Shown here: positions 34,036 through 44,034 of the stretch, one piece after another | Layout of the letters: the number at the start of each line of letters is the position of its first letter | How positions within the stretch are numbered: the first letter of the stretch is position 1 | NCBI GenBank assembly: GCA_019634795.1 | Contig: JAHCAR010000001.1 | Coordinates: 1 to 64,000 of the forward strand | Reading direction: 5' to 3' | From: Dokdonella sp. | GTDB taxonomy: Bacteria; Pseudomonadota; Gammaproteobacteria; Xanthomonadales; Rhodanobacteraceae | DNA: 64,000 bases | The notes under the pieces: model-generated | Told to the model about the DNA's origin: nothing | The model's database searches: none | What the model saw: only the letters and a program-made list of their open reading frames with translations | Program-made: the position numbers and the translations under genes

Positions 34036-34773
34036 TCAGCCGGGCGCCGCCGTCATGACCGGCTTCACCGACGCGGCAGCGGACTCGCCGCCGACGCGCT
34101 CGGAATAGCGGTCGGTCAGGGCTTCGACGTGCGGGCGCAGCAGCACGGTGAAGCGCACCAGTTCCTCCATGACGTCGACGATGCGCTCGTAGTAACTCGA
34201 TGCCCGCATGCGGCCGTGTTCGTCGAACTCCTGCCAGGCCTTGGCCACGCTCGACTGGTTCGGAATCGTGAACATGCGCATCCAGCGACCGAGCAGGCGC
34301 AGGGTGTTGACGGCATTGAAGGACTGCGAGCCGCCGGATACTTGCATCACCGCCAGCGTGCGCCCCTGGGTCGGGCGCAAGGAACCGGCATTCAGCGGCA
34401 GGTGGTCAACCTGCGCTTTCATCAAGCCGGTCACCGCACCATGCCGTTCCGGGCTGCACCAGACCTGGCCTTCCGACCAGATCGACAGTTCGCGCAGCTC
34501 GTGGATGGCGGGATGATCGTCGCCGGCGACCTGGTCGGGAAAGGGCAGGTCGGAGGGGTCGAAGATCCGGGTTTCGGCGCCGAAATAGCGCAACAGGCGC
34601 GCGGCCTCCTCGACGGCGAGCCGCGAGAACGAGCGGGTACGCAACGAGCCGTAGAGTAGCAGGATGCGCGGTGCATGCGTCCCCGGGGCGAGAATGCCGG
34701 CGAGGTTGCGGGTGGCGCGATCCGGATCGAGCGCGGGCAAGAGGTCGGCTTGCTCGAGAGGGCGGATTCTCAT
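34036..34773 (-). CDS. arsH: ArsH NADPH-dependent FMN reductase (organoarsenical oxidase)
   Basis: A 245-residue flavodoxin-fold protein. The FMN-binding loop [10 protein letters not shown] (42-51) and the C-terminal [17 protein letters not shown] identify ArsH. ArsH proteins oxidise trivalent methylated and aromatic arsenicals and reduce flavins, protecting against organoarsenicals. The gene follows arsN2 with a 4-bp overlap and is last in an arsR-arsC-acr3-arsN2-arsH order on the minus strand. Confidence 0.95.
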
Positions 34774-35222
34774 GACGGTTCCACGAGCATCTTGACGTGG
34801 TAGGTCGCACTGGCCGGGCAGAGTGCGGCAAATTCGCGGCTTGAGGCGATCCCTTCAGGTGCGGAATCGCGCGCCGCGCAACGGTAGCCATGGCGTGCGA
34901 AGAAATCGCTGGCCGTCATCGTCAGCAAGTGCAAGGTCCGGCATCCGTCGTCGGCGGCCCGGCGCTCGAGCGCAGCGAGCAGGGCAGTGCCTGTTCCTTC
35001 GCGTCGCCGATCTGGCCGCACCCATACCGAGCGCAGCAGGCGATCGGGGCCATCGCCCTGCAGCCCGGCGTAGCCGACCAGTTCATCGTCGAGGCGGGCA
35101 CGAAAGAAGCGGCAATCGTCGGCTTCAAGGTCATCGTGGGGCAATCCCGCGCTGGCCAGGGCGGCACGCAGCCCGGCCAGGTGTGCAGGCGCAAGCACTT
35201 CGAGCAGGAGTGTGCCGCTCAT
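34770..35222 (-). CDS. arsN2: GNAT N-acetyltransferase, ArsN2-like
   Basis: A 150-residue GNAT acetyltransferase. The acetyl-CoA loop is [12 protein letters not shown] ([11 protein letters not shown]), followed by [16 protein letters not shown]. ArsN proteins are thought to acetylate phosphinothricin-like or arsenic-containing amino acid toxins; ArsN2 occurs in arsenic operons. The start (35222) and stop (34770) each overlap a neighbour by an ATGA, with acr3 upstream and arsH downstream, so function in arsenic resistance is likely. Confidence 0.9.
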
Positions 35223-36283
35223 GCGATGGCGCCGCGTTCGTACCAGCCGCGCGAACGCCGCACCAGGGCCACGATCGAGAGCATGACCGGGACTTCGACG
35301 AGGACTCCGACCACGGTCGCCAGTGCGGCGCCCGAGTCGAGGCCGAACAGGCTGATGGCCGCGGCCACGGCCAGTTCGAAAAAATTCGAAGCGCCGATCA
35401 GTGCCGAGGGTGCAGCGACGCACCAGGCGACGCCGAAGCGACGGCTGAGCCAGTAGGCCAGCCCGGCATTCAGGTAGACCTGGAGCAAGATCGGCACGGC
35501 GAGCAGGACGATGATGAGTGGCTGGGCCAGGATCGCCTCGCCCTGAAAGCCGAACAGCAGCACCAGGGTGCCGAGCAGGGCCAGCAGCGAGACCGGTTGC
35601 AGCACGCTCAGGGTGGCGCGCAGAGCGGCCTGGCTGCGGCGCAACAGGATCGCGCGCAGAACCTGTGCGAACAGCACCGGCAGGACGATATAGAGCACGA
35701 CGGAAAGCAGCAGCGTGTCCCAGGGCACCGTGATCGAAGCCACCCCGAGCAACAGTGCGACCAGCGGTGCAAACGCGAAGACCATGATCGTGTCGTTCAG
35801 CGCGACCTGGCTCAGGGTGAAGTGCGGCTCGCCCTCGCAGAGGTTGGACCAGACGAAAACCATCGCGGTACAGGGCGCCGCAGCGAGCAGGATCAGACCC
35901 GCGATGTAGGAGTGGATTTCCGCAGCGGGCAGCCAGGGTGCGAACAGCCCGGCGATGAACACGGTGCCGAGCAGGGCCATCGAGAACGGCTTGACCGCCC
36001 AGTTGATGAACAGGGTGATGCCGATTCCGCGCCAGTGTTCGCGCACGCCGGCGAGGGCGGCGAAGTCGATCTTCAGCAGCATCGGCACGATCATCAGCCA
36101 GATCAGGGCGGCCACGACCAGGTTCACATGGGCGAATTCGGCGCCGGCAATGAGCGCAAATGTGCCCGGCACGAGGTGGCCCAGACCGATGCCGGCGACG
36201 ATGCAGAGCCCGACCCAGACGCTCAGGTAGCGCTCGAAGATGCCGAGGCCGGCGCGCGCGGCATCGGCTGTCCGTGTGCTCAT
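35219..36283 (-). CDS. acr3: Arsenite efflux permease, ACR3 family
   Basis: A 354-residue, ten-helix membrane protein of the ACR3 (bile-acid/arsenite transporter) family, which exports arsenite driven by proton motive force. The conserved cysteine in the fourth helix is present (L-A-A-A-P-C138-T-A-M-V-F-V-W-S-N-L), and the later A-L-N-D-T-I-M-V-F motif is intact. Start 36283 was preferred to the upstream extension to 36400, which would run into arsC. arsC ends 10 bp before this start, so they are cotranscribed. Confidence 0.95.
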   Translation of the reverse strand: MSTRTADAARAGLGIFERYLSVWVGLCIVAGIGLGHLVPGTFALIAGAEFAHVNLVVAALIWLMIVPMLLKIDFAALAGVREHWRGIGITLFINWAVKPFSMALLGTVFIAGLFAPWLPAAEIHSYIAGLILLAAAPCTAMVFVWSNLCEGEPHFTLSQVALNDTIMVFAFAPLVALLLGVASITVPWDTLLLSVVLYIVLPVLFAQVLRAILLRRSQAALRATLSVLQPVSLLALLGTLVLLFGFQGEAILAQPLIIVLLAVPILLQVYLNAGLAYWLSRRFGVAWCVAAPSALIGASNFFELAVAAAISLFGLDSGAALATVVGVLVEVPVMLSIVALVRRSRGWYERGAIA

Positions 36284-36293
36284 CGGGGGCGCC

Positions 36294-36821
36294 TCAATGC
36301 GACTCGGTAGGTAGAGACGTGGCCCCTTCCTGGCGGCCGATTTCCTGCAAGTGCGAGGACAGCGCGGCGCGATCGAGGCGCTCGAAAGGCAGGGCGGCAA
36401 AGGCCGTGATGCGGTTCTTCAAATGGCGGAAGGCGGTCGCGAAGGCCTGCTTGCGCTCGACCAGGCTGCCTTCGGCCGCGGCCGGGTCTTCGATTCCCCA
36501 ATGCGCTGTTTGCGGATGCCCCGGCCAGATCGGGCAGACCTCGCCGGCGGCGTTGTCGCAGACAGTGAAAATGAAATCCATGACCGGCGCATCCGCGCCG
36601 TCGAACTCGTCCCAGCTCTTCGAGCGCATGCCATCGGTCGGGTAGCCGAAACTGGCGAGCGTTTCGAGGGCGAGCGGGTTGACGCCGGGTTTTGGCATGC
36701 TGCCTGCGGAGAAGGCGCGGAAGCGACCAGCGCCATCCTTGGCCAGGATGCCTTCGGCCATGATCGAGCGGGCCGAGTTGCCTGTGCACAGGAACAGGAC
36801 ATTGAAGATTCGGTCGGACAT
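36294..36821 (-). CDS. arsC: Arsenate reductase, low-molecular-weight phosphatase type (thioredoxin-linked)
   Basis: A 175-residue protein with the phosphatase loop F-L-C12-T-G-N-S-A-R-S19 near the N terminus and a pair C88/C95 (T-V-C-D-N-A-A-G-E-V-C-P). In the S. aureus thioredoxin-coupled family C10, C82 and C89 carry the disulfide cascade, and the seven-residue spacing is kept here. The enzyme reduces arsenate to arsenite, which ACR3 then exports. About 35 residues longer than S. aureus ArsC, with the extra at the C terminus. It is 80 bp downstream of arsR. Confidence 0.95.
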   Translation of the reverse strand: MSDRIFNVLFLCTGNSARSIMAEGILAKDGAGRFRAFSAGSMPKPGVNPLALETLASFGYPTDGMRSKSWDEFDGADAPVMDFIFTVCDNAAGEVCPIWPGHPQTAHWGIEDPAAAEGSLVERKQAFATAFRHLKNRITAFAALPFERLDRAALSSHLQEIGRQEGATSLPTESH

Positions 36822-36901
36822 GGAACACCTTTGCTGGGGAGTCGTTTTGCAGTCGACGGGCGCGATCGCGGTTCGTCGGTCGTTGCGCGATCAATCCGGT
36901 A

Positions 36902-37255
36902 TCAGCGCTTTCCTGTCGCCGGCCCGCAACACGGCACGAGTTCGGCGACGAGCGGCGTGCAGATCCCGGGATTGCCGCTGCAGCAGTCCTTGAGCAGGTA
37001 CAGGGTCAGCTGGCGGAAGCGATCGAGATCGGCGCGGTATATGATCGAGCGGCCATTGCGCTCGGAGCGCGCCAGCCCGACTCCGGTGAGAATCGCCAGG
37101 TGCGTCGACGAGGTGTTCTGCGGCACGTCGAGCAGGCGCGCCACGTCGCCAGCGGGCAGGCCGCCCGGTTCGTGCGTGACGAGCAAGCGAAACGCTTCGA
37201 GCCGGGTGGGCTGGGCAAGGGCGGACAGGACGGTGGTGGCTTCTTTTATATCCAT
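36902..37255 (-). CDS. arsR: ArsR-family As(III)-responsive repressor, C-terminal cysteine type
   Basis: A 117-residue winged-helix regulator (A-L-A-Q-P-T-R-L-E-A-F-R-L-L, then T-S-S-T-H-L-A-I-L-T-G-V-G-L). The classical arsenite site E-L-C-V-C-D in the recognition helix is absent. Instead the C terminus has C91-C92-S-G-N-P-G-I-C99 and C109-C110, which fits the Acidithiobacillus ferrooxidans ArsR type (C95, C96, C102). The start at 37255 is set by the family N terminus D-I-K-E-A. The dyad around 37262 overlaps its start and suggests autoregulation of the ars operon. Confidence 0.94.
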   Translation of the reverse strand: MDIKEATTVLSALAQPTRLEAFRLLVTHEPGGLPAGDVARLLDVPQNTSSTHLAILTGVGLARSERNGRSIIYRADLDRFRQLTLYLLKDCCSGNPGICTPLVAELVPCCGPATGKR

Positions 37256-37276
37256 GAATCCAGAATAATGGATATA
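37247..37276 (-). promoter_or_regulatory. Candidate ArsR operator overlapping the arsR start
   Basis: TATATCCAT (37247-37255) and ATGGATATA (37268-37276) are perfect inverted arms, 21 bp centre to centre, in an AT-rich stretch. The arms lie across the arsR start codon (minus strand). ArsR repressors bind dyads of this size near their promoters. The match to ArsR binding is inferred from position. Confidence 0.6.
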
Positions 37277-37486
37277 ATGAGTCCACACAAGGGCTACCGC
37301 GGTTCACTCTATTCGGGCCTTCCGCGCCCCGCAGCAGAAATTTCTGCTGTTCAAGCCTCCGCTTGCCTGAAGTGCCCGATTCCGGCCTTGCGGCGATCCT
37401 GCGCCAACAATGATTTGGCTCCGCAAGCGATCGTGCGAGTACTGGACCATGAGCCCGGCCAGATTGACCCAGAGCCCGGCCTACAC

Positions 37487-37502
37487 TACGATGATCATCG
37501 TA
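37487..37502. promoter_or_regulatory. TACGA-N6-TCGTA palindrome upstream of paralogue 1
   Basis: TACGATGATCATCGTA is a perfect 16-bp palindrome, 102 bp before the ATG of the paralogue at 37605. The same arms recur before each of the other three paralogues. The rest of 37277-37604 shows no gene. Confidence 0.7.
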
Positions 37503-37604
37503 CGACGATCCTTGCGGCCCCGGATCGACTCTAACGATCTGGCTGCCGTTCTTTTTCCACATTCCGCGTCAATTTCTGGCGTGGCTATTCGTGAGGAATT
37601 TCAA

Positions 37605-38093
37605 ATGATGCGCATTCTTTCCCTTATCGCTCTGGGCGTGCTCCTGGTCTCGCAACCCGTGCTCGCGAAGAAACCGGTGGAAAAGGTCGTTGTCGCCGAT
37701 ACCCCGGAAAAGTTCGATGCCACGATAGAGAAGATTCGCGGCCAGATGGCGGACGGCCAGCGCTACGAATTCCTCCAGGAAAGGGACCGTGAAAAGGTCA
37801 ACAGGAAGCTCGACCGCATGCGCGAAATGCTGGTCGAGGCCGGGTCGGTCGAGGCGATGCAGCCGGAACAAAAGGTCAAGTTGTTCAGCATCCAGGAGGA
37901 AGTCAACGGAATCCTGGCCCGAAATGCCGATGACCGTCTGGTCTGTTCGCACGATGCGCCGACCGGCTCCCACGTGCCCATGACCACGTGCCATACCGTG
38001 CGCGAACTGGCACACAACCGCGAGAACGCGCGTCATCAGATGGATGTGATCAAGGATCAGAATCGTCAGGGCATCACGAACAGTCGCGATTGA
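37605..38093 (+). CDS. Small secreted two-cysteine protein, paralogue 1 of 4
   Basis: A 162-residue protein of unknown function. Signal peptide about 1-21 (cleavage after V-L-A), then a helical region (V-V-A-D-T-P-E-K-F, then R-Y-E-F-L, then L-D-R-M) and a conserved C-x(4-5)-P-T-G-S-H-x-P-M-x-x-C motif near the C terminus (C114 and C129), followed by T-V-R-E. Three paralogues follow within 3 kb. The two cysteines probably form a disulfide in the periplasm. GAGGAA precedes ATG 37605; ATG 37608 is also possible. Confidence 0.88.
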   Translation: MMRILSLIALGVLLVSQPVLAKKPVEKVVVADTPEKFDATIEKIRGQMADGQRYEFLQERDREKVNRKLDRMREMLVEAGSVEAMQPEQKVKLFSIQEEVNGILARNADDRLVCSHDAPTGSHVPMTTCHTVRELAHNRENARHQMDVIKDQNRQGITNSRD

Positions 38094-38403
38094 CGGTCGC
38101 CGGATGACGCTTGCATGCAATTGCAGGCGTCAGTTTCTGGCTAGCCACCGGTCAACGCATGCTTGCGAACAAGCCACGTCGACCGCGAAGGTCCAATCGA
38201 TATCTCCTGGCTTTGGGTGAGCCGGCATCACCCAGCCATCTCGACAATTCCCCGAATCTCAATATACGATACGTATCGTAGGTCGCGGGGTGATCCTCAA
38301 GTCCAGCGAGTGAGCTGCGTTGGCCTCGTTCCGTGCGGCTGTTTTCCGCGCCTGATTTTCCAACAGGCGTCTCTATGGTATCGGTCTAATCTGGAGAACG
38401 AAG
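38094..38403. other. Intergenic region between paralogues 1 and 2
   Basis: About 310 bp with no supported gene. It contains the palindrome at 38265-38280 and the leader of paralogue 2. Confidence 0.5.
38265..38280. promoter_or_regulatory. TACGA-N6-TCGTA palindrome upstream of paralogue 2
   Basis: TACGATACGTATCGTA is a perfect 16-bp palindrome in an AT-rich patch (starting AATATACGAT), 123 bp before the ATG of the paralogue at 38404. It has the same arms as the sites at 37487, 39026 and 39911. Confidence 0.75.
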
Positions 38404-38889
38404 ATGTTTCGTGCAAGTGCGTTGTTGATCATGGGGCTGATCCTGGTGAGTTCGCCATTGGCCGCGAAAAAGGCTGAAGAAAAGGTCGTGATAGCGGAGA
38501 CGTCGGAAAAGTTCGGTGTGCTGGTGGAGGCGATTCGCCAGGAAATGGCTCCCGGCAAGCGCTACGAGTTCCTGAAATCGGCCGATCGCGCGACGGTCAA
38601 CCAGGCCCTGGATCGCATGGCGGCGATGCTTGCCAGGAGTGGCTCGGTGGATGCCTTGTCGCGCGAAGAGCGCACTCAGTTGCAGAACGACCAGGAAAAG
38701 GTCAACGGCCTGCTGGCCAGGAACGCCGACGATCGACTCATCTGTACCTATGTAGCGCCAGTGGGTTCGCATCTGCCGGTGAAGTCCTGCAGGACCGCTC
38801 GCGAGATCGCGCAGAGTCGGGCCAACTCCAGACGCCAGGCCGATGAAATCAGCACCCAGGGGCGAATTGGCGGTGGTCCTGGCAACTGA
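38404..38889 (+). CDS. Small secreted two-cysteine protein, paralogue 2 of 4
   Basis: A 161-residue relative of paralogue 1. It keeps the signal peptide (ending L-A-A), E-T-S-E-K-F-G-V-L-V-E-A-I-R-Q-E-M, G-K-R-Y-E-F-L, the L-D-R-M region and the motif I-C-T-Y-V-A-P-V-G-S-H-L-P-V-K-S-C-R-T-A-R-E. It is more diverged from copies 3 and 4 than those two are from each other, which suggests an older duplication. Start 38404 has GGAG about 8 bp upstream. Confidence 0.87.
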   Translation: MFRASALLIMGLILVSSPLAAKKAEEKVVIAETSEKFGVLVEAIRQEMAPGKRYEFLKSADRATVNQALDRMAAMLARSGSVDALSREERTQLQNDQEKVNGLLARNADDRLICTYVAPVGSHLPVKSCRTAREIAQSRANSRRQADEISTQGRIGGGPGN

Positions 38890-39023
38890 AAGACCTGCAT
38901 GCGAGTGCGCCGGCATTGCATTGGATCAAGGATACAGAGTCACCGGTCGAGGATCGCGGGGCTCCGATTCTTCCGACCGAGATCGCCCGCGGGCCCCGGT
39001 GCTGGAAATCGTGCGCAGCGTGT

Positions 39024-39043
39024 AGTACGATAGTATTCGTACT
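39024..39043. promoter_or_regulatory. TACGA-N6-TCGTA palindrome upstream of paralogue 3
   Basis: AGTACGA-TAGTAT-TCGTACT has seven-base perfect arms around a TAGTAT centre that resembles a -10 box. It ends 88 bp before the ATG at 39132. The flanking bases (GTGCTGGAA before it, GGCGGTCATGGAAT after it) are also shared with the site of paralogue 4. Confidence 0.75.
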
Positions 39044-39131
39044 TTAGAGGCGGTCATGGAATAGTCTTGCCATCGACCGTCTCCTCGCGATTCTCCAGGT
39101 GGTGGATCGCGCCGACAAAAAGGAGACTCCG

Positions 39132-39620
39132 ATGTCACGCATCCTGGTGCTTGTAGTTGCGGTTCTATTCTTTACTTCCTCGGTACTGCAGGCAAAAGGA
39201 CCGGAAAAGAAGGCGGTCGTCGCCGACACCCCTGAAAAATTCGAATTGCTGGTCGAAGCCATCCGTCAGGAAATGGAGCCGGGCAAGCGCTACGAGTTCC
39301 TCAATTCCTATAATCGCGGGGTCGTCAACGACGGACTCGATCGAATGGGCGAGATGTTGCAAAAGGCCGGTTCCGTCGATGCCATGTCGCAGGAGGAGAA
39401 GACGGAGCTTTTCAGCATCCAGGAAAAAGTCAACGGCGTGCTTGCGAAGAATGCCGGCGACAGACTGATCTGCACGCACCGTCCGCCAACCGGTTCGCAT
39501 ATTCCGATGACCGAGTGCAAGACGGTCCGGGAACTGCATTTGCGGCGCGTTGAAGGACGCAGGAAATTGAAGGAAATGGAGGATACGCAGCGCGCTCTCG
39601 ATGCGCCCACCGGCGGCTGA
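39132..39620 (+). CDS. Small secreted two-cysteine protein, paralogue 3 of 4
   Basis: A 162-residue protein. Signal peptide ending L-Q-A, then the core F-E-L-L-V-E-A-I-R-Q-E-M-E-P-G-K-R-Y-E-F-L and the motif I-C-T-H-R-P-P-T-G-S-H-I-P-M-T-E-C. It is very close to paralogue 4, with few changes in the core (for example N-S-Y against N-T-Y after E-F-L), so the two are a recent duplication. A Shine-Dalgarno AAGGAGA precedes ATG 39132; the longer open frame from 39099 is not needed. Confidence 0.88.
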   Translation: MSRILVLVVAVLFFTSSVLQAKGPEKKAVVADTPEKFELLVEAIRQEMEPGKRYEFLNSYNRGVVNDGLDRMGEMLQKAGSVDAMSQEEKTELFSIQEKVNGVLAKNAGDRLICTHRPPTGSHIPMTECKTVRELHLRRVEGRRKLKEMEDTQRALDAPTGG

Positions 39621-40017
39621 GGCGTCGAAACGCCTGGCCTCGTTCCGAATTCGGGCAAGTCCGATGCGGGGCATGGGGGTTCGGCTTGGCCTCCATGGCC
39701 GCCGGCAATTCCAATCGGCCCTATATTTTTCATCCCGGCGCTGCCGATGGTGGCGTGCGGTGGTTCCGGCAGCTGGATGAGCTGCAAACGAACGCGTCGG
39801 CATTCCGCTTGAGCAAGGACGTCGCGCCTCAGGTCAGGGAATACGCGTCCGGTTCTCCCGGCCGAGCTCGCCCATGGGCCCTGGTGCTGGAACTGAAGCG
39901 CAGCAGGTAGTACGATATAATTCGTACTATAGGGGCGGTCATGGAATGCGCTTGATCCTCGGCCGCCATCACGCGACGCTGCAGGTGGCGGGTCGCACCG
40001 ACAAACGGGAGACTCCA
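39621..40017. other. Intergenic region between paralogues 3 and 4
   Basis: About 400 bp with no supported gene. The first 270 bp show nothing recognisable; the last 120 bp (with the palindrome at 39908) parallel the leader of paralogue 3. Confidence 0.5.
39908..39929. promoter_or_regulatory. TACGA-N6-TCGTA palindrome upstream of paralogue 4
   Basis: TAGTACGA-TATAAT-TCGTACTA has eight-base perfect arms around a consensus -10 hexamer TATAAT. It ends 88 bp before the ATG at 40018. A regulator bound here would cover the -10 box, which points to repression unless the regulator remodels the promoter; no good -35 box is seen upstream. Confidence 0.78.
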
Positions 40018-40521
40018 ATGTCACGCATCCTGATGCTGGTACTTGCTGTTTTACTCTGTTCCACCTCTCCACTGCAGGCGAAGGGGGCGGAAAAGAAGGC
40101 GATCGTCGCCGACACCCCAGAGAAATTCGAGTTGCTGGTCGAAGCCATCCGTCAGGAGATGGAGCCGGGCAAGCGTTACGAGTTCCTCAATACGTATAAT
40201 CGCGGGGTCGTCAACGACGGACTCGATCGGATGGGCGAGATGTTGCAAGAGGCCGGGTCCGTCGACGCGATGTCCCAGGAAGAGAAGACGAAGCTCTTCA
40301 GCATCCAGGAAAAGGTCAACGGTGTGCTTGCGAATAATGCCGCCGACCGACGGATCTGCACGCATCGTGCGCCAACCGGTTCGCATATTCCGATGACCGA
40401 GTGCAAGACGGTCCGCGAACTGCACCTGCGACGCGCTGAAGGGCGCAGAAAGCTCAAGGACATGGAGGATACGCAGCGCGCGCTCGACCAGCCCACCTGG
40501 GATCCGAAGCAAGGCGGTTGA
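40018..40521 (+). CDS. Small secreted two-cysteine protein, paralogue 4 of 4
   Basis: A 167-residue protein, the near twin of paralogue 3 with a slightly longer C terminus (ending D-P-K-Q-G-G). It has the same signal peptide style (ending L-Q-A), core and C-x(4-5)-P-T-G-S-H-I-P-M-T-E-C motif. Start 40018 has CGGGAGA upstream; the longer open frame from 39874 runs through the palindrome and is not supported. Confidence 0.88.
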   Translation: MSRILMLVLAVLLCSTSPLQAKGAEKKAIVADTPEKFELLVEAIRQEMEPGKRYEFLNTYNRGVVNDGLDRMGEMLQEAGSVDAMSQEEKTKLFSIQEKVNGVLANNAADRRICTHRAPTGSHIPMTECKTVRELHLRRAEGRRKLKDMEDTQRALDQPTWDPKQGG

Positions 40522-40812: not shown

Positions 40813-43800
40813 ATGTGCCAGAGTAGCCAACGATTCCGGATTTGCACGGCCATCGCCATTCTGGCGATGCTCGTCATCTCGCCCGTTCGCTCCCAGACCA
40901 CCGATCAGTCGCAGCTCGACGGCTTGCAGTGGCGCCTGGTCGGCCCGTTCCGCGGCGGCTGGGCAACCATGGCTGCCGGAATCCCCGATCAGCCTGATAC
41001 GTTCTACTTCGGTGCCGCCGGTGGTGGCGTCTGGAAGACCCGCGACGCGGGTGCCACCTGGCAGTCGGTGGACAACGGCCTCGATGACGCCGCGATCGGC
41101 GCAATCGCAATCTCCGCATCCAACCCCGATGTCCTTTACGCCGGCAGCGGACACCCCGAGCCGCGCTACGACATCCAGTCCGGCAACGGCATCTACAAAT
41201 CGGTCGATGGCGGGCAGCACTGGCGCAACATCGGCCTGCGCGAAACGCGCCACATCGGTGCCATCCTGGTCGACCCGAAGAATCCCGACACGGTCCTGGT
41301 CGGCGCGCTCGGCCATATGTTTGGCCCGAATCCTGACCGTGGCGTCTACCGCAGCACCGATGGCGGCCAGCACTGGACGAAGAGCCTGTACGTCGATGAG
41401 CGGACCGGCGTCGTCGATCTCGCCGCCGATCCTGCCGATCCGGCCAGCGTCTATGCCGCGACCTGGACCGCGCGCGACTTGCCGTGGCTGAGCTACTTCA
41501 CGCCGATCGAAGGCGAGGGCAGCGCGATCTGGCACTCGGGCGACGGCGGTCAGAGCTGGGCGCGCGTCGGTGGCGAGGGCTGGCCAATCGGCAAGTTGGG
41601 TCGGATCGGACTTGCAGTGGCGCACCTCGACAGCGGTGCGACCCGACTCTACGCCTCGATCGACTCGGCCGCGCACGGCGGACTCTACCGTTCCGATGAC
41701 GGCGGCGCGCACTGGCAGCACGTCAACGACGCCGGCGCCGTGTCGAGCTGGTACATGAGCCGCCTGACCGTCGCACCGGGCAACCCGGACACGCTTTACA
41801 CGGTCGGCCAATCCATCCACAAGTCGACCGATGCCGGCAAGACCTTCACGATCATCAAGGGCGCGCCGGGCGGTGACGATTACCATCATCTGTGGATCAA
41901 TCCGAAACACCCCGAGCGCATGATCACCGCCGCCGACCAGGGCGCCGTGGTCAGTGTCAACGGAGGTCAATCCTGGAGCGACTGGTACAACCAGCCGACC
42001 GGCCAGTTCTATCATCTGGCCGCCGACAACCGGTTCCCGTACTGGATTTATTCGGGCCAGCAGGATTCGGGCACGGTCGGTATCGCCAGCCGCAGCGACT
42101 ACGGCGCGATCAGCTCTCGCGACTGGCATCCCGTCGGCGGCGACGAGCGTGATTTCGATATTCCCGATCCGGAGAATCCCGATATCGTCTTCGGCTCCGG
42201 GCTCGGCGGCCGCATCTCGCGCTGGGATGCGCGCACCGGCGAAGTGCAGAACGTCTCACCCTGGCCCGTTTCGAGCTATGGCGCGCGCGGCACCGATGTG
42301 CGCTACCGCTACACGTGGTTCACGCCGATCGCCTTTTCGGCACACGCACCCTATGCACTCTACTCAGGCGCCCAGGTGCTGTTCCGCTCGCTCGACCGCG
42401 GCCAGAGCTGGCAGGTGATCAGTCCGGACCTGACCGGTGCCGCGGCGAAGAAGGGCAACTGTGACGGCTACGTGCCGGTGCGGCGGGCCAGCGCCTGCGG
42501 CTTCGGCGTCATTTACGCGATCACCCCTTCGCCGCAGGACAACAACGAGATCTGGATCGGCACTGACAACGGTCGCATCCAGCTCACGCGCAATGCGGGA
42601 GCAAGTTGGAGCAATGTAACTCCGAAAGGCGTGCCGGACTGGGCCAAGATCAGTTCGATCGATGTCTCGGTCCTGGATGCGGGAACGGCCTATGTATCGA
42701 TCGACAATCACCGCCAGGATGATTTCCGGCCTCGAGTCCTGCGCACGCGCGATCATGGCAAGAGCTGGACGCCGATCACGGCGGGCCTTCCCGATGGCCA
42801 TTACGTGAGCGTCGTTCGTGCCGATCCGCTGCGTCGCGGTTTGCTCTACGCCGGCACGGACAACGGCGTCTTCGTCTCGTTCGATGACGGCGGCCACTGG
42901 CAATCGCTGCAACGCAATCTGCCGGTGGCCTGGGTGCGCGACCTGCTCGTGCACGACAACGACCTGATTGCGGCGACCCAGGGCAGGGCGATCTGGGTGC
43001 TCGACGACCTCAGCCCGCTGCGCCAGCTCGATGCCGCCAATCCCCTCCGCAGCTCGCGCCTGTACAAGCCGGCCCCCGCGTACCGGCTGCGCCCGGACCA
43101 GAACAAGGACACCCCGCCACCGGCCGAGACCGCGCTCGGCACGAACCCGCCGATCGGCGCGATCATCGACTATGTGCTGCCGGCGGCAGCACAGCGGGTG
43201 CGTATCGAGATCCGCGCAGCCGACGGCAGCGTGCTGCGCGAATTCGCCAGCGATGAGGCGCCACCGGCGATCGGCGCGAAGCCGTACTTCGCCGACATCT
43301 GGCTGCGTCCGAACCGGCGTCCGGGCGTTGAAGCGGGCGCGCACCGCTTCGTCTGGGATTTGCACCTCGCGCGTCCGAAGGCGATCAAGTACGACTACTC
43401 GATCGCCGCCTTGCTCGGCCAATCGACGCCGCTGGTACCGCAGGGCCCGCTCGCCGTGCCGGGTGACTACGAGGTCGCGCTCCTCGTCGATGGCGTCGAG
43501 TCGACGCAGCCGCTGACGATCAAGGCCGATCCGCGCGTTTCCGCCTCGCCGGCCGACCTCGCTGCGACGCTGGCGTTTTCGCAAGCCGTCGCGGCGCAAC
43601 TCGAACGCGACTGGCAGGCGCACGGCGAGGTGGAAGCCGTGCAGCGCCAGTTGGACGCGCGGGCCAAGGACCCGGCGCAGCCGCCAACGGCCAAACTCAA
43701 GAGTGCAGCAGATACTTTCGGTAAACAGCTCGAACCGCTGCGCGTCGACAACGGACACGAAGCGCCGAGCCTCGCCACGATCGGCGACCAGCTGGCCACG

Positions 43801-44034
43801 CTGGCGACCGATGTCGAAGGCGCCGACCGCCTGCCGACCGGGGCGCAGAAGGCATTGCTGGCCGAATGCCTGAGCCGGCTGGACCGTTCCATCGAGCGCT
43901 GGTCGGCCTTGCGCGGCCAGGAACTCGCGACGCTCAATGCGCAGTTCGTTGCCGAGGGCATGGCGCCGATTACGGTACCCTCTCCTGCACAGATCGGGCC
44001 CGGCGGCGACGCCGAGTCGAAGGACCTGCCGTGA
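40813..44034 (+). CDS. Secreted VPS10/BNR-type beta-propeller protein (glycosyl hydrolase-like)
   Basis: A 1073-residue protein with a signal peptide (about 1-28, ending V-R-S). Repeated Asp-box motifs (T-R-D-A-G-A-T-W, S-V-D-G-G-Q-H-W, S-T-D-G-G-Q-H-W) run through the first 700 residues, matching the sortilin/VPS10-like propeller proteins often labelled glycosyl hydrolase. The C-terminal third (W-D-L-H, then a helical region) is the usual companion domain. A hydrolase activity is not established for this group, and catalytic residues cannot be picked out. GAGGA precedes ATG 40813. Confidence 0.9.
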   Translation: MCQSSQRFRICTAIAILAMLVISPVRSQTTDQSQLDGLQWRLVGPFRGGWATMAAGIPDQPDTFYFGAAGGGVWKTRDAGATWQSVDNGLDDAAIGAIAISASNPDVLYAGSGHPEPRYDIQSGNGIYKSVDGGQHWRNIGLRETRHIGAILVDPKNPDTVLVGALGHMFGPNPDRGVYRSTDGGQHWTKSLYVDERTGVVDLAADPADPASVYAATWTARDLPWLSYFTPIEGEGSAIWHSGDGGQSWARVGGEGWPIGKLGRIGLAVAHLDSGATRLYASIDSAAHGGLYRSDDGGAHWQHVNDAGAVSSWYMSRLTVAPGNPDTLYTVGQSIHKSTDAGKTFTIIKGAPGGDDYHHLWINPKHPERMITAADQGAVVSVNGGQSWSDWYNQPTGQFYHLAADNRFPYWIYSGQQDSGTVGIASRSDYGAISSRDWHPVGGDERDFDIPDPENPDIVFGSGLGGRISRWDARTGEVQNVSPWPVSSYGARGTDVRYRYTWFTPIAFSAHAPYALYSGAQVLFRSLDRGQSWQVISPDLTGAAAKKGNCDGYVPVRRASACGFGVIYAITPSPQDNNEIWIGTDNGRIQLTRNAGASWSNVTPKGVPDWAKISSIDVSVLDAGTAYVSIDNHRQDDFRPRVLRTRDHGKSWTPITAGLPDGHYVSVVRADPLRRGLLYAGTDNGVFVSFDDGGHWQSLQRNLPVAWVRDLLVHDNDLIAATQGRAIWVLDDLSPLRQLDAANPLRSSRLYKPAPAYRLRPDQNKDTPPPAETALGTNPPIGAIIDYVLPAAAQRVRIEIRAADGSVLREFASDEAPPAIGAKPYFADIWLRPNRRPGVEAGAHRFVWDLHLARPKAIKYDYSIAALLGQSTPLVPQGPLAVPGDYEVALLVDGVESTQPLTIKADPRVSASPADLAATLAFSQAVAAQLERDWQAHGEVEAVQRQLDARAKDPAQPPTAKLKSAADTFGKQLEPLRVDNGHEAPSLATIGDQLATLATDVEGADRLPTGAQKALLAECLSRLDRSIERWSALRGQELATLNAQFVAEGMAPITVPSPAQIGPGGDAESKDLP

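Follow-up and report, generated by a model that had tools for sequence, protein, structure and literature searches.

A 64,000-nucleotide stretch of DNA from Dokdonella sp. (assembly GCA_019634795.1, contig JAHCAR010000001.1, positions 1 to 64,000; hereafter the window) carries four tandem genes for related, putatively exported two-cysteine proteins, and the palindrome TACGA-N6-TCGTA precedes each of them (Table 1). On the evidence assembled here, we propose with a probability of about 0.85 that these palindromes are the operators of a BlaI/MecI-type repressor, which is co-encoded with an M56 (BlaR1-like) protease on another contig of the same genome. Motif positions were counted on the whole window, which is one stretch of a Dokdonella-like source genome (G000) of 3.87 Mb that is 85% complete, so that extra copies or sites may be missing. 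The preliminary description of this DNA had placed the palindrome before each of the four genes, with perfect 16-bp palindromes in copies 1 and 2 and TATAAT at the centre of copy 4, and the sequence bears this out at all four positions; the arms of copies 3 and 4 are longer than first stated, reaching 7 bp (AGTACGA/TCGTACT) and 8 bp (TAGTACGA/TCGTACTA), respectively. The distance from the end of the palindrome to the ATG is 102, 123, 90 and 91 bp in copies 1 to 4. With up to one mismatch allowed, the window contains six matches (four of them exact) against 0.30 expected, a number reached by none of 100 shuffles. The source genome as a whole has the exact motif at only four sites, against one for the reversed control; the motif might have been as frequent inside genes as before them, and all four exact sites lie in the leaders of the four genes. 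Leader identity among copies 1, 2 and 3/4 (46–52%) is close to the shuffled means (44–46%), indicating that the leaders have little in common besides the operator. Copies 3 and 4, recent duplicates whose leaders are 78% identical, would suit the idea that tandem duplication merely carried along one meaningless palindrome; given the expected count in the window, the single control match in the genome and the retention of the palindrome in other genera, by which chance or hitch-hiking is already contradicted, we regard this explanation as having a negligible probability.

Table 1. Genes, palindromes (predicted operators) and predicted promoters in the window, and the blaI-M56 pair outside it; aa, amino acids.
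Feature	Location	Strand	Remarks
Operator 1	37487..37502	none	TACGATGATCATCGTA; exact motif; predicted at about -12 to +3
Operator 2	38265..38280	none	TACGATACGTATCGTA; exact motif
Operator 3	39026..39041	none	TACGATAGTATTCGTA; exact motif; 7-bp arms
Operator 4	39911..39926	none	TACGATATAATTCGTA; exact motif; 8-bp arms
Gene 1	37605..38093	+	162 aa, putative exported two-cysteine protein; signal peptide by inspection
Gene 2	38404..38889	+	161 aa, putative exported two-cysteine protein; PVGSH variant
Gene 3	39132..39620	+	162 aa, putative exported two-cysteine protein; structure modelled
Gene 4	40018..40521	+	167 aa; recent tandem duplicate, with 88% identity to gene 3
Predicted sigma70-type promoter, gene 1	37464..37492	+	TTGACC-N17-TACGAT; score 8.8; 1% of random 70-bp windows
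Predicted promoter, gene 2	38241..38270	+	TCGACA-N18-TACGAT; score 7.0; 2% of random windows
Predicted promoter, gene 3	39003..39031	+	TGGAAA-N17-TACGAT, weak -35; score 7.5; 2% of random windows
Predicted promoter, gene 4	39893..39921	+	CTGAAG-N17-TATAAT, weak -35; score 11.4; reached by no random window
BlaI/MecI-type repressor gene (outside window)	G000:C31:2180-2581		Penicillinase_R PF03965
M56 (BlaR1-like) membrane metalloprotease gene (outside window)	G000:C31:282-2183		PF05569, PF03544

All four products, 161–167 aa in length, have a signal-peptide-like N-terminus on inspection, and they share 51% (copy 1), 53% (copy 2) and 88% (copy 4) identity with the product of copy 3. The family relationship and the gene places given in the preliminary description hold; the PTGSH motif said to be common to all reads PVGSH in copy 2, and the hairpin pattern of the exported proteins is C-x4-P-[TV]-G-S-H-x-P-x3-C. 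Duplication may, as proposed, have increased gene dosage, in partial agreement with the sequences: copies 3 and 4 are recent tandem duplicates at both the protein and the leader level, and copies 1 and 2 are older paralogues. A profile search of the source genome returned exactly these four family genes, a fifth row at E 0.15 not being counted, and an alignment of 19 relatives places Cys114, Gly121, Ser122, Cys129 and Thr131 among the invariant positions. The AlphaFold model of the gene 3 protein (six sequences; mean predicted local distance difference test score, pLDDT, of 81) consists of the signal peptide, three helices (34-47, 59-79, 87-106), a hairpin formed by strands 112-117 and 126-131 that holds Cys114 and Cys129, and a C-terminal helix (132-157); Cys114 may lie opposite Cys129 and form a disulfide with it if the two modelled strands pair end to end. 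Searches of Pfam and NCBIfam yielded no family above cut-off for the four window proteins, and a Foldseek comparison of the model with solved structures gave no match at E <= 0.001, so that the fold hints at no function. The family is present in 45 of the 99 genomes of our set of relatives (the source genome included), whereas a survey across the class found it in 3/114 genomes, namely the source genome, a second member of its order, and a genome from a different order that matched only in part.

The assignment of the regulator is carried by what the genomes themselves document: the exclusivity of the operator, its place before blaI and family genes in relatives, the linkage of these genes, and the co-occurrence of the operator with one BlaI class. 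The candidate repressor encoded on C31 belongs by its domain to the BlaI/MecI family (Penicillinase_R 83.4 bits against a Pfam cut-off of 22.6), its gene overlaps that of the M56 protein by 4 bases, and a predicted autoregulatory site, TACGAGAGATATCGTTGACA, lies before it; the composite form TACGAN6TCGTTGAC occurs only once in the source genome, at this very place. In the related Lysobacterales, from which a subset of 60 genomes was used for gene linkage, the commonest form is TACGA-N6-TCGTTGACA, whose 3' arm continues into the -35 box. The composite form has 34 sites, spread over 28 of the 99 genomes, where the reversed control has 4, and the first gene downstream is a family gene at 24 of these sites and a gene of one BlaI class at six. 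The latter six lie in G000, G002 (of the same genus as the source genome, with two family genes behind palindromes and a blaI-M56 pair), G003, G004, G005 and G007, in none of which a Penicillinase_R gene stands beside the family genes. The 11 family genes of these six genomes form one clade with 100/100 support in a tree of 31 rows, and the exact palindrome is present in 9/10 leaders of that clade, a truncated G004 gene being set apart and one G007 copy lacking the palindrome; an exact palindrome with matching promoter surroundings stands at the end of a short G004 contig and would fit the missing leader. Within the genus exact palindromes number 22 against 3 in the control. Among the family rows obtained by protein search only (window and L002-L030), TACGA-N6-TCGT lies no more than 220 bp from the start in 27/41. 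The usual order in other relatives is operator, family gene or genes, blaI and M56. Of the 60 genomes, 54 have Penicillinase_R genes and 32 bear the family; in 15 of these 32 a Penicillinase_R gene follows the family on the same strand, no more than 4 kb downstream.

The operator also follows one class of BlaI, which we defined as matches of at least 54% identity in a search of 36 genomes with the C31 BlaI. Wherever family and class occur together, an operator with at least 9/10 arm bases stands in a family or blaI leader (25/25 genomes; 24/24 if G071 is set aside, where the operator led to the family gene), and in the genomes with the family and without the class (G027, G028, G042, G056, G059, G061, G069, G070, G072 and G079) no family leader reaches that level (0/10, best 8). 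A match of 9/10 arm bases was reached in 6/960 random 260-bp stretches; the genomes are related by descent, and the counts are not independent events. G060 has both the class and the operator before blaI, and is not among the family matches of the relatives search. A second BlaI of the source genome (C8), which belongs to another class, is preceded by TACTACAGTCGTAGTA, and a BlaI of the C8 class in G002 by TACTACAGTAGTAGTA; this type of site has the identical 5-6-5, 16-bp layout, with T and not G at arm position 4, and the corresponding DNA-binding segments read AHTTVATLLTRLEKRG in C8 BlaI and GYTTSLKMLQIMHAKG in C31 BlaI. TACGA-N6-TCGT was found in none of the 27 other-class BlaI leaders scanned. 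One regulator and a small regulon of secreted proteins, as first suggested, are thus well supported by a site that is exclusive, conserved in related genera and tied to one BlaI class; the regulator, left unknown in that account, is probably the BlaI/M56 pair on the other contig.

The overlap of the operators with promoters is a prediction from promoter scoring. In copies 1–3 the left arm, TACGAT, is the top-scoring -10 hexamer, which would place the palindrome at about -12 to +3. The best hexamer of copy 4 is the central TATAAT, with the TACGAT predicted for the other copies as an alternative -10. When sigma70-like promoters were scored around 49 operators, 31 operators fell at about -50 to -33, where the -35 is largely given by the search pattern and the -10 is not; eight lay at -12 to +3, copy 4 at -17 to -2, four in the spacer at -26 to -11 and two at -29 to -14, and three were without a register (a G007 family gene, the upstream G080 site, and G078, where the promoter score was no better than random). 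Paired -35 and -10 sites stand 37–38 bp apart in five loci (L007, L008, L157, L055 and L158), with exceptional spacings of 22 bp between two sites in G071 and 46 bp in G051. Placement over the -35, the spacer or the -10 implies repression by blocking of RNA polymerase, and the spacer and -10 registers, which are hard to square with activation, fit occlusion of the polymerase by a repressor. Could the palindromes instead be symmetric -10 hexamers, TACGAT on both strands, that start divergent transcripts and spread along with the gene duplications? TACGAT ranks first as a -10 hexamer in copies 1–3 and forms both arms in copies 1 and 2, but the palindrome of relatives lies off the predicted -10, at -50 to -34 and -26 to -11, the otherwise dissimilar leaders leave no room for a copying relic, and family genes in class-less genomes are without it (0/10); this possibility is accordingly very improbable. 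The palindrome as a promoter element in place of an operator was rejected, since it shifts relative to the predicted promoter in relatives.

Several observations weigh against a BlaI operator and must be set beside this evidence. The register at -50 to -34, centred at about -42, would also suit an activator, its -35 being largely pattern-given, and copies 3 and 4 have weak predicted -35 boxes. The class cut of 54% (the next value below is 49%) was chosen after the table had been seen, and in G062 and G067 just one of two leaders has the operator. An other-class BlaI in G061 (L173, 6075-6090) has an exact TACGA-N6-TCGTA, TACGACACCTGTCGTA, 41 bp before its start, showing that the operator arms are not strictly limited to one BlaI class. 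The one-mismatch motif is not enriched across the source genome (26 sites, the four exact ones included, against 54 for the reversed control), so that only the exact form, or a form with promoter context, is informative. No site was found in 14/41 family rows, some of them later array genes or truncated, and no adjacent Penicillinase_R gene in 17 of the 32 family-bearing genomes. Outside the genus, exact palindromes in bulk are near background (70 against 74 in the control, 50 genomes); within it, 12 of the 22 lie outside any known or probable family leader. Finally, the four remaining composite sites precede genes for an AraC-type regulator, an M64-type peptidase, a lipoprotein-like product and a short open reading frame.

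Some of these points would be expected if a different factor, for example of the CRP/FNR or TetR type, bound the palindrome and blaI were merely one of its targets. The CRP site, TGTGA-N6-TCACA, has the same 5-6-5 geometry, a centre at -42, as seen in many relatives, would be expected of a class II activator, and a few sites precede unrelated genes. We consider such a factor unlikely, since the operator tracks the BlaI class (25/25 against 0/10 genomes) and stands before blaI itself in six genomes in which blaI lies apart from the family, the -10 and spacer registers are unsuited to an activator, and the second BlaI of the source genome has a site that keeps the 16-bp layout and differs in its base at arm position 4. 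An attempt to extend the regulon through one-mismatch sites in the source genome was also rejected, because these were fewer than in the reversed control. Just upstream of TACGACACCTGTCGTA in L173 lies a palindrome-like CTACAAATGTCGTAC; this leader is intermediate between the two operator types.

Under BlaI control, a repressor dimer would occupy TACGA-N6-TCGTA, covering the -10 region at the promoters of the secreted proteins and the -35 edge at its own, and keep RNA polymerase off. The periplasmic region of the M56 protein, with its TonB_C domain and two C-x4-G-S-[HL]-V-C elements, would sense an envelope signal; the protease would then become active, the repressor would be inactivated, and the four exported hairpin proteins and blaI-M56 would be made. 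Repression and proteolytic release are here taken over by analogy from the known BlaI-BlaR1 system.

The M56 protein of the source genome (633 aa) scores 111.5 bits for PF05569 against a cut-off of 31 and contains the HELGH form of HExxH. It has a TonB_C domain and no penicillin-binding domain recognisable with Pfam, and its tail contains CTPPIGSHVC and CTPPTGSLVC. Extending this analysis to 24 M56 proteins beside class BlaI genes (21 of these BlaI were scored, and G051, G057 and G078 were assigned by sequence) placed Peptidase_M56 above cut-off in 24/24 and TonB_C in 21/24; at E <= 0.01 the only Pfam hits were of the M56, M48 and TonB types, with a penicillin-binding domain in 0/24. A C-terminal C-x4-G-[ST]-[HRL]-x-C is present in all 24 class sensors, slightly longer in G067, and in none of the three M56-type proteins beside other BlaI genes that were scanned (L114, L170 and L173, the last just below the M56 cut-off); no M56 row came from L169, whose BlaI is 49% identical. 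This element resembles the cysteine hairpin of the exported proteins; a common function is hypothetical, the stretch being short for homology. One rather doubtful possibility is that sensor and exported proteins read the same envelope partner via a hairpin that is closed by cysteines and has G-[ST]-[HRN] at its tip, the secreted proteins serving as soluble decoys or as feedback ligands, in competition with the BlaR-like sensor or reporting to it. If true, this would constitute a homeostatic envelope circuit in which TonB_C replaces the penicillin sensor.

The arrangement is that of BlaI-BlaR1 and MecI-MecR1 of Staphylococcus aureus, in which a Penicillinase_R repressor stands beside an M56 metalloprotease and a site precedes the repressor gene, and both the sensor and the operator appear to depart from it. 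Unlike in that system, the sensors here have the cysteine element and, in most cases, TonB_C instead of a penicillin-binding domain, and in place of a beta-lactamase or penicillin-binding protein the system is predicted to control small exported proteins, other targets in the genome being possible. The operator element of BlaI and MecI is given as TACA/TGTA in PMC7253601, whereas the arms here are TACGA/TCGTA, and the TACA-TGTA core TACANNTGTA is in none of the four window operators; the core is not universal in the BlaI/MecI/CopY family, for the BlaI motifs of Clostridium thermocellum differ (PMC8457756). Release mediated by BlaR1 is reported to proceed through proteolysis (PMC7593790 and PMC9834060), and the BlaR1 homologue of Mycobacterium tuberculosis is described as having no equivalent sensor domain (PMC9834060). 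The CopY/CopR copper repressors share the DNA-binding family and a 16-base palindromic operator, but their consensus, RNYKACANNYGTMRNY (PMC7253601), is not matched here, and the C31 BlaI contains no cysteine and therefore no Cys-x-Cys metal motif, unlike CopY/CopR. BlaI_0696 and BlaI_1845 of C. thermocellum likewise govern small autoregulated regulons with BlaR1 and hypothetical proteins (PMC8457756); the arms differ, the motif of the former being a GTCTAT inverted repeat with five bases between and that of the latter a single, similar GACTAT. The C8 pair of the source genome combines the same families with a 16-bp site before the gene, but TonB_C and the cysteine element are both missing from its M56 protein. 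No description of this BlaI class, the TACGA operator or the exported family was found among the matches listed in open-access PubMed Central at the level of titles and abstract openings, which is weak evidence of absence.

Further members of the regulon are suggested by sites before genes for Kelch-repeat exported proteins (G003 and G005), a TPR protein (G006) and a similar-looking gene (G001), an RCC1-repeat protein (G004) and the M64-type peptidase (G051). In G024 the AraC-type regulator gene (L158, 3490-3542), away from blaI, has -35 and -10 operators 37 bp apart and is a candidate second-tier regulator. The genes seen behind a site in more than one genome, together with this double-site case, are the most promising additional members. 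Similar Kelch-repeat exported proteins of Dokdonella in L176 (near 2521) and L177 (near 2679), each behind an exact TACGA-N6-TCGTA, are possible members as well. TACGATGCxxTTCGTTGA occurs 14–50 bp before a lipoprotein-like gene (CGGGSSNS...) in L102 (7076, G005), L103 (5302, G003) and L180 (2091, G004), alike by eye. In two other genera, L169 (4612-4648) and L170 (4663-4700), a pair of TACGA-N6-TCGTA palindromes 21–22 bp apart closely precedes a gene for an exported protein of about 440 aa, and a BlaI that is less closely related lies nearby (49% identity in G012); this is perhaps a sister regulon.

Directly upstream of the array and divergent from it, the minus strand of the window (34036-37288) encodes an HTH_20 ArsR-like regulator, a protein with the low-molecular-weight phosphatase fold, an SBF-family transporter and an FMN reductase, which we take to be an arsenic-type set (arsenate reductase-like, Acr3-like and ArsH-like). 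Directly downstream on the plus strand (40816-44034) lies a gene whose product, about 1070 aa long, is of the Sortilin/Vps10 type and contains BNR repeats; no exact operator of the TACGA type precedes this gene. The family genes of other genera in L007, L008, L011, L018, L021 and L023 follow a similar-looking gene 3' end, presumably that of a RimK-type ligase judging from the peptide ending, and the neighbourhood seems conserved across genera.

The signal logic of BlaR has been worked out on the penicillin-binding sensor of staphylococci, and Penicillinase_R genes are common in these Gram-negative bacteria. Here sequence is enough to name a regulon that extends across many genera of a single order, together with its defined operator, a sensor that lacks the penicillin domain, and its predicted exported targets. 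It makes testable what BlaR-like proteases that have no penicillin sensor detect: the operator can serve as a reporter, and the cysteine element common to sensor and targets is a first candidate for sensing.

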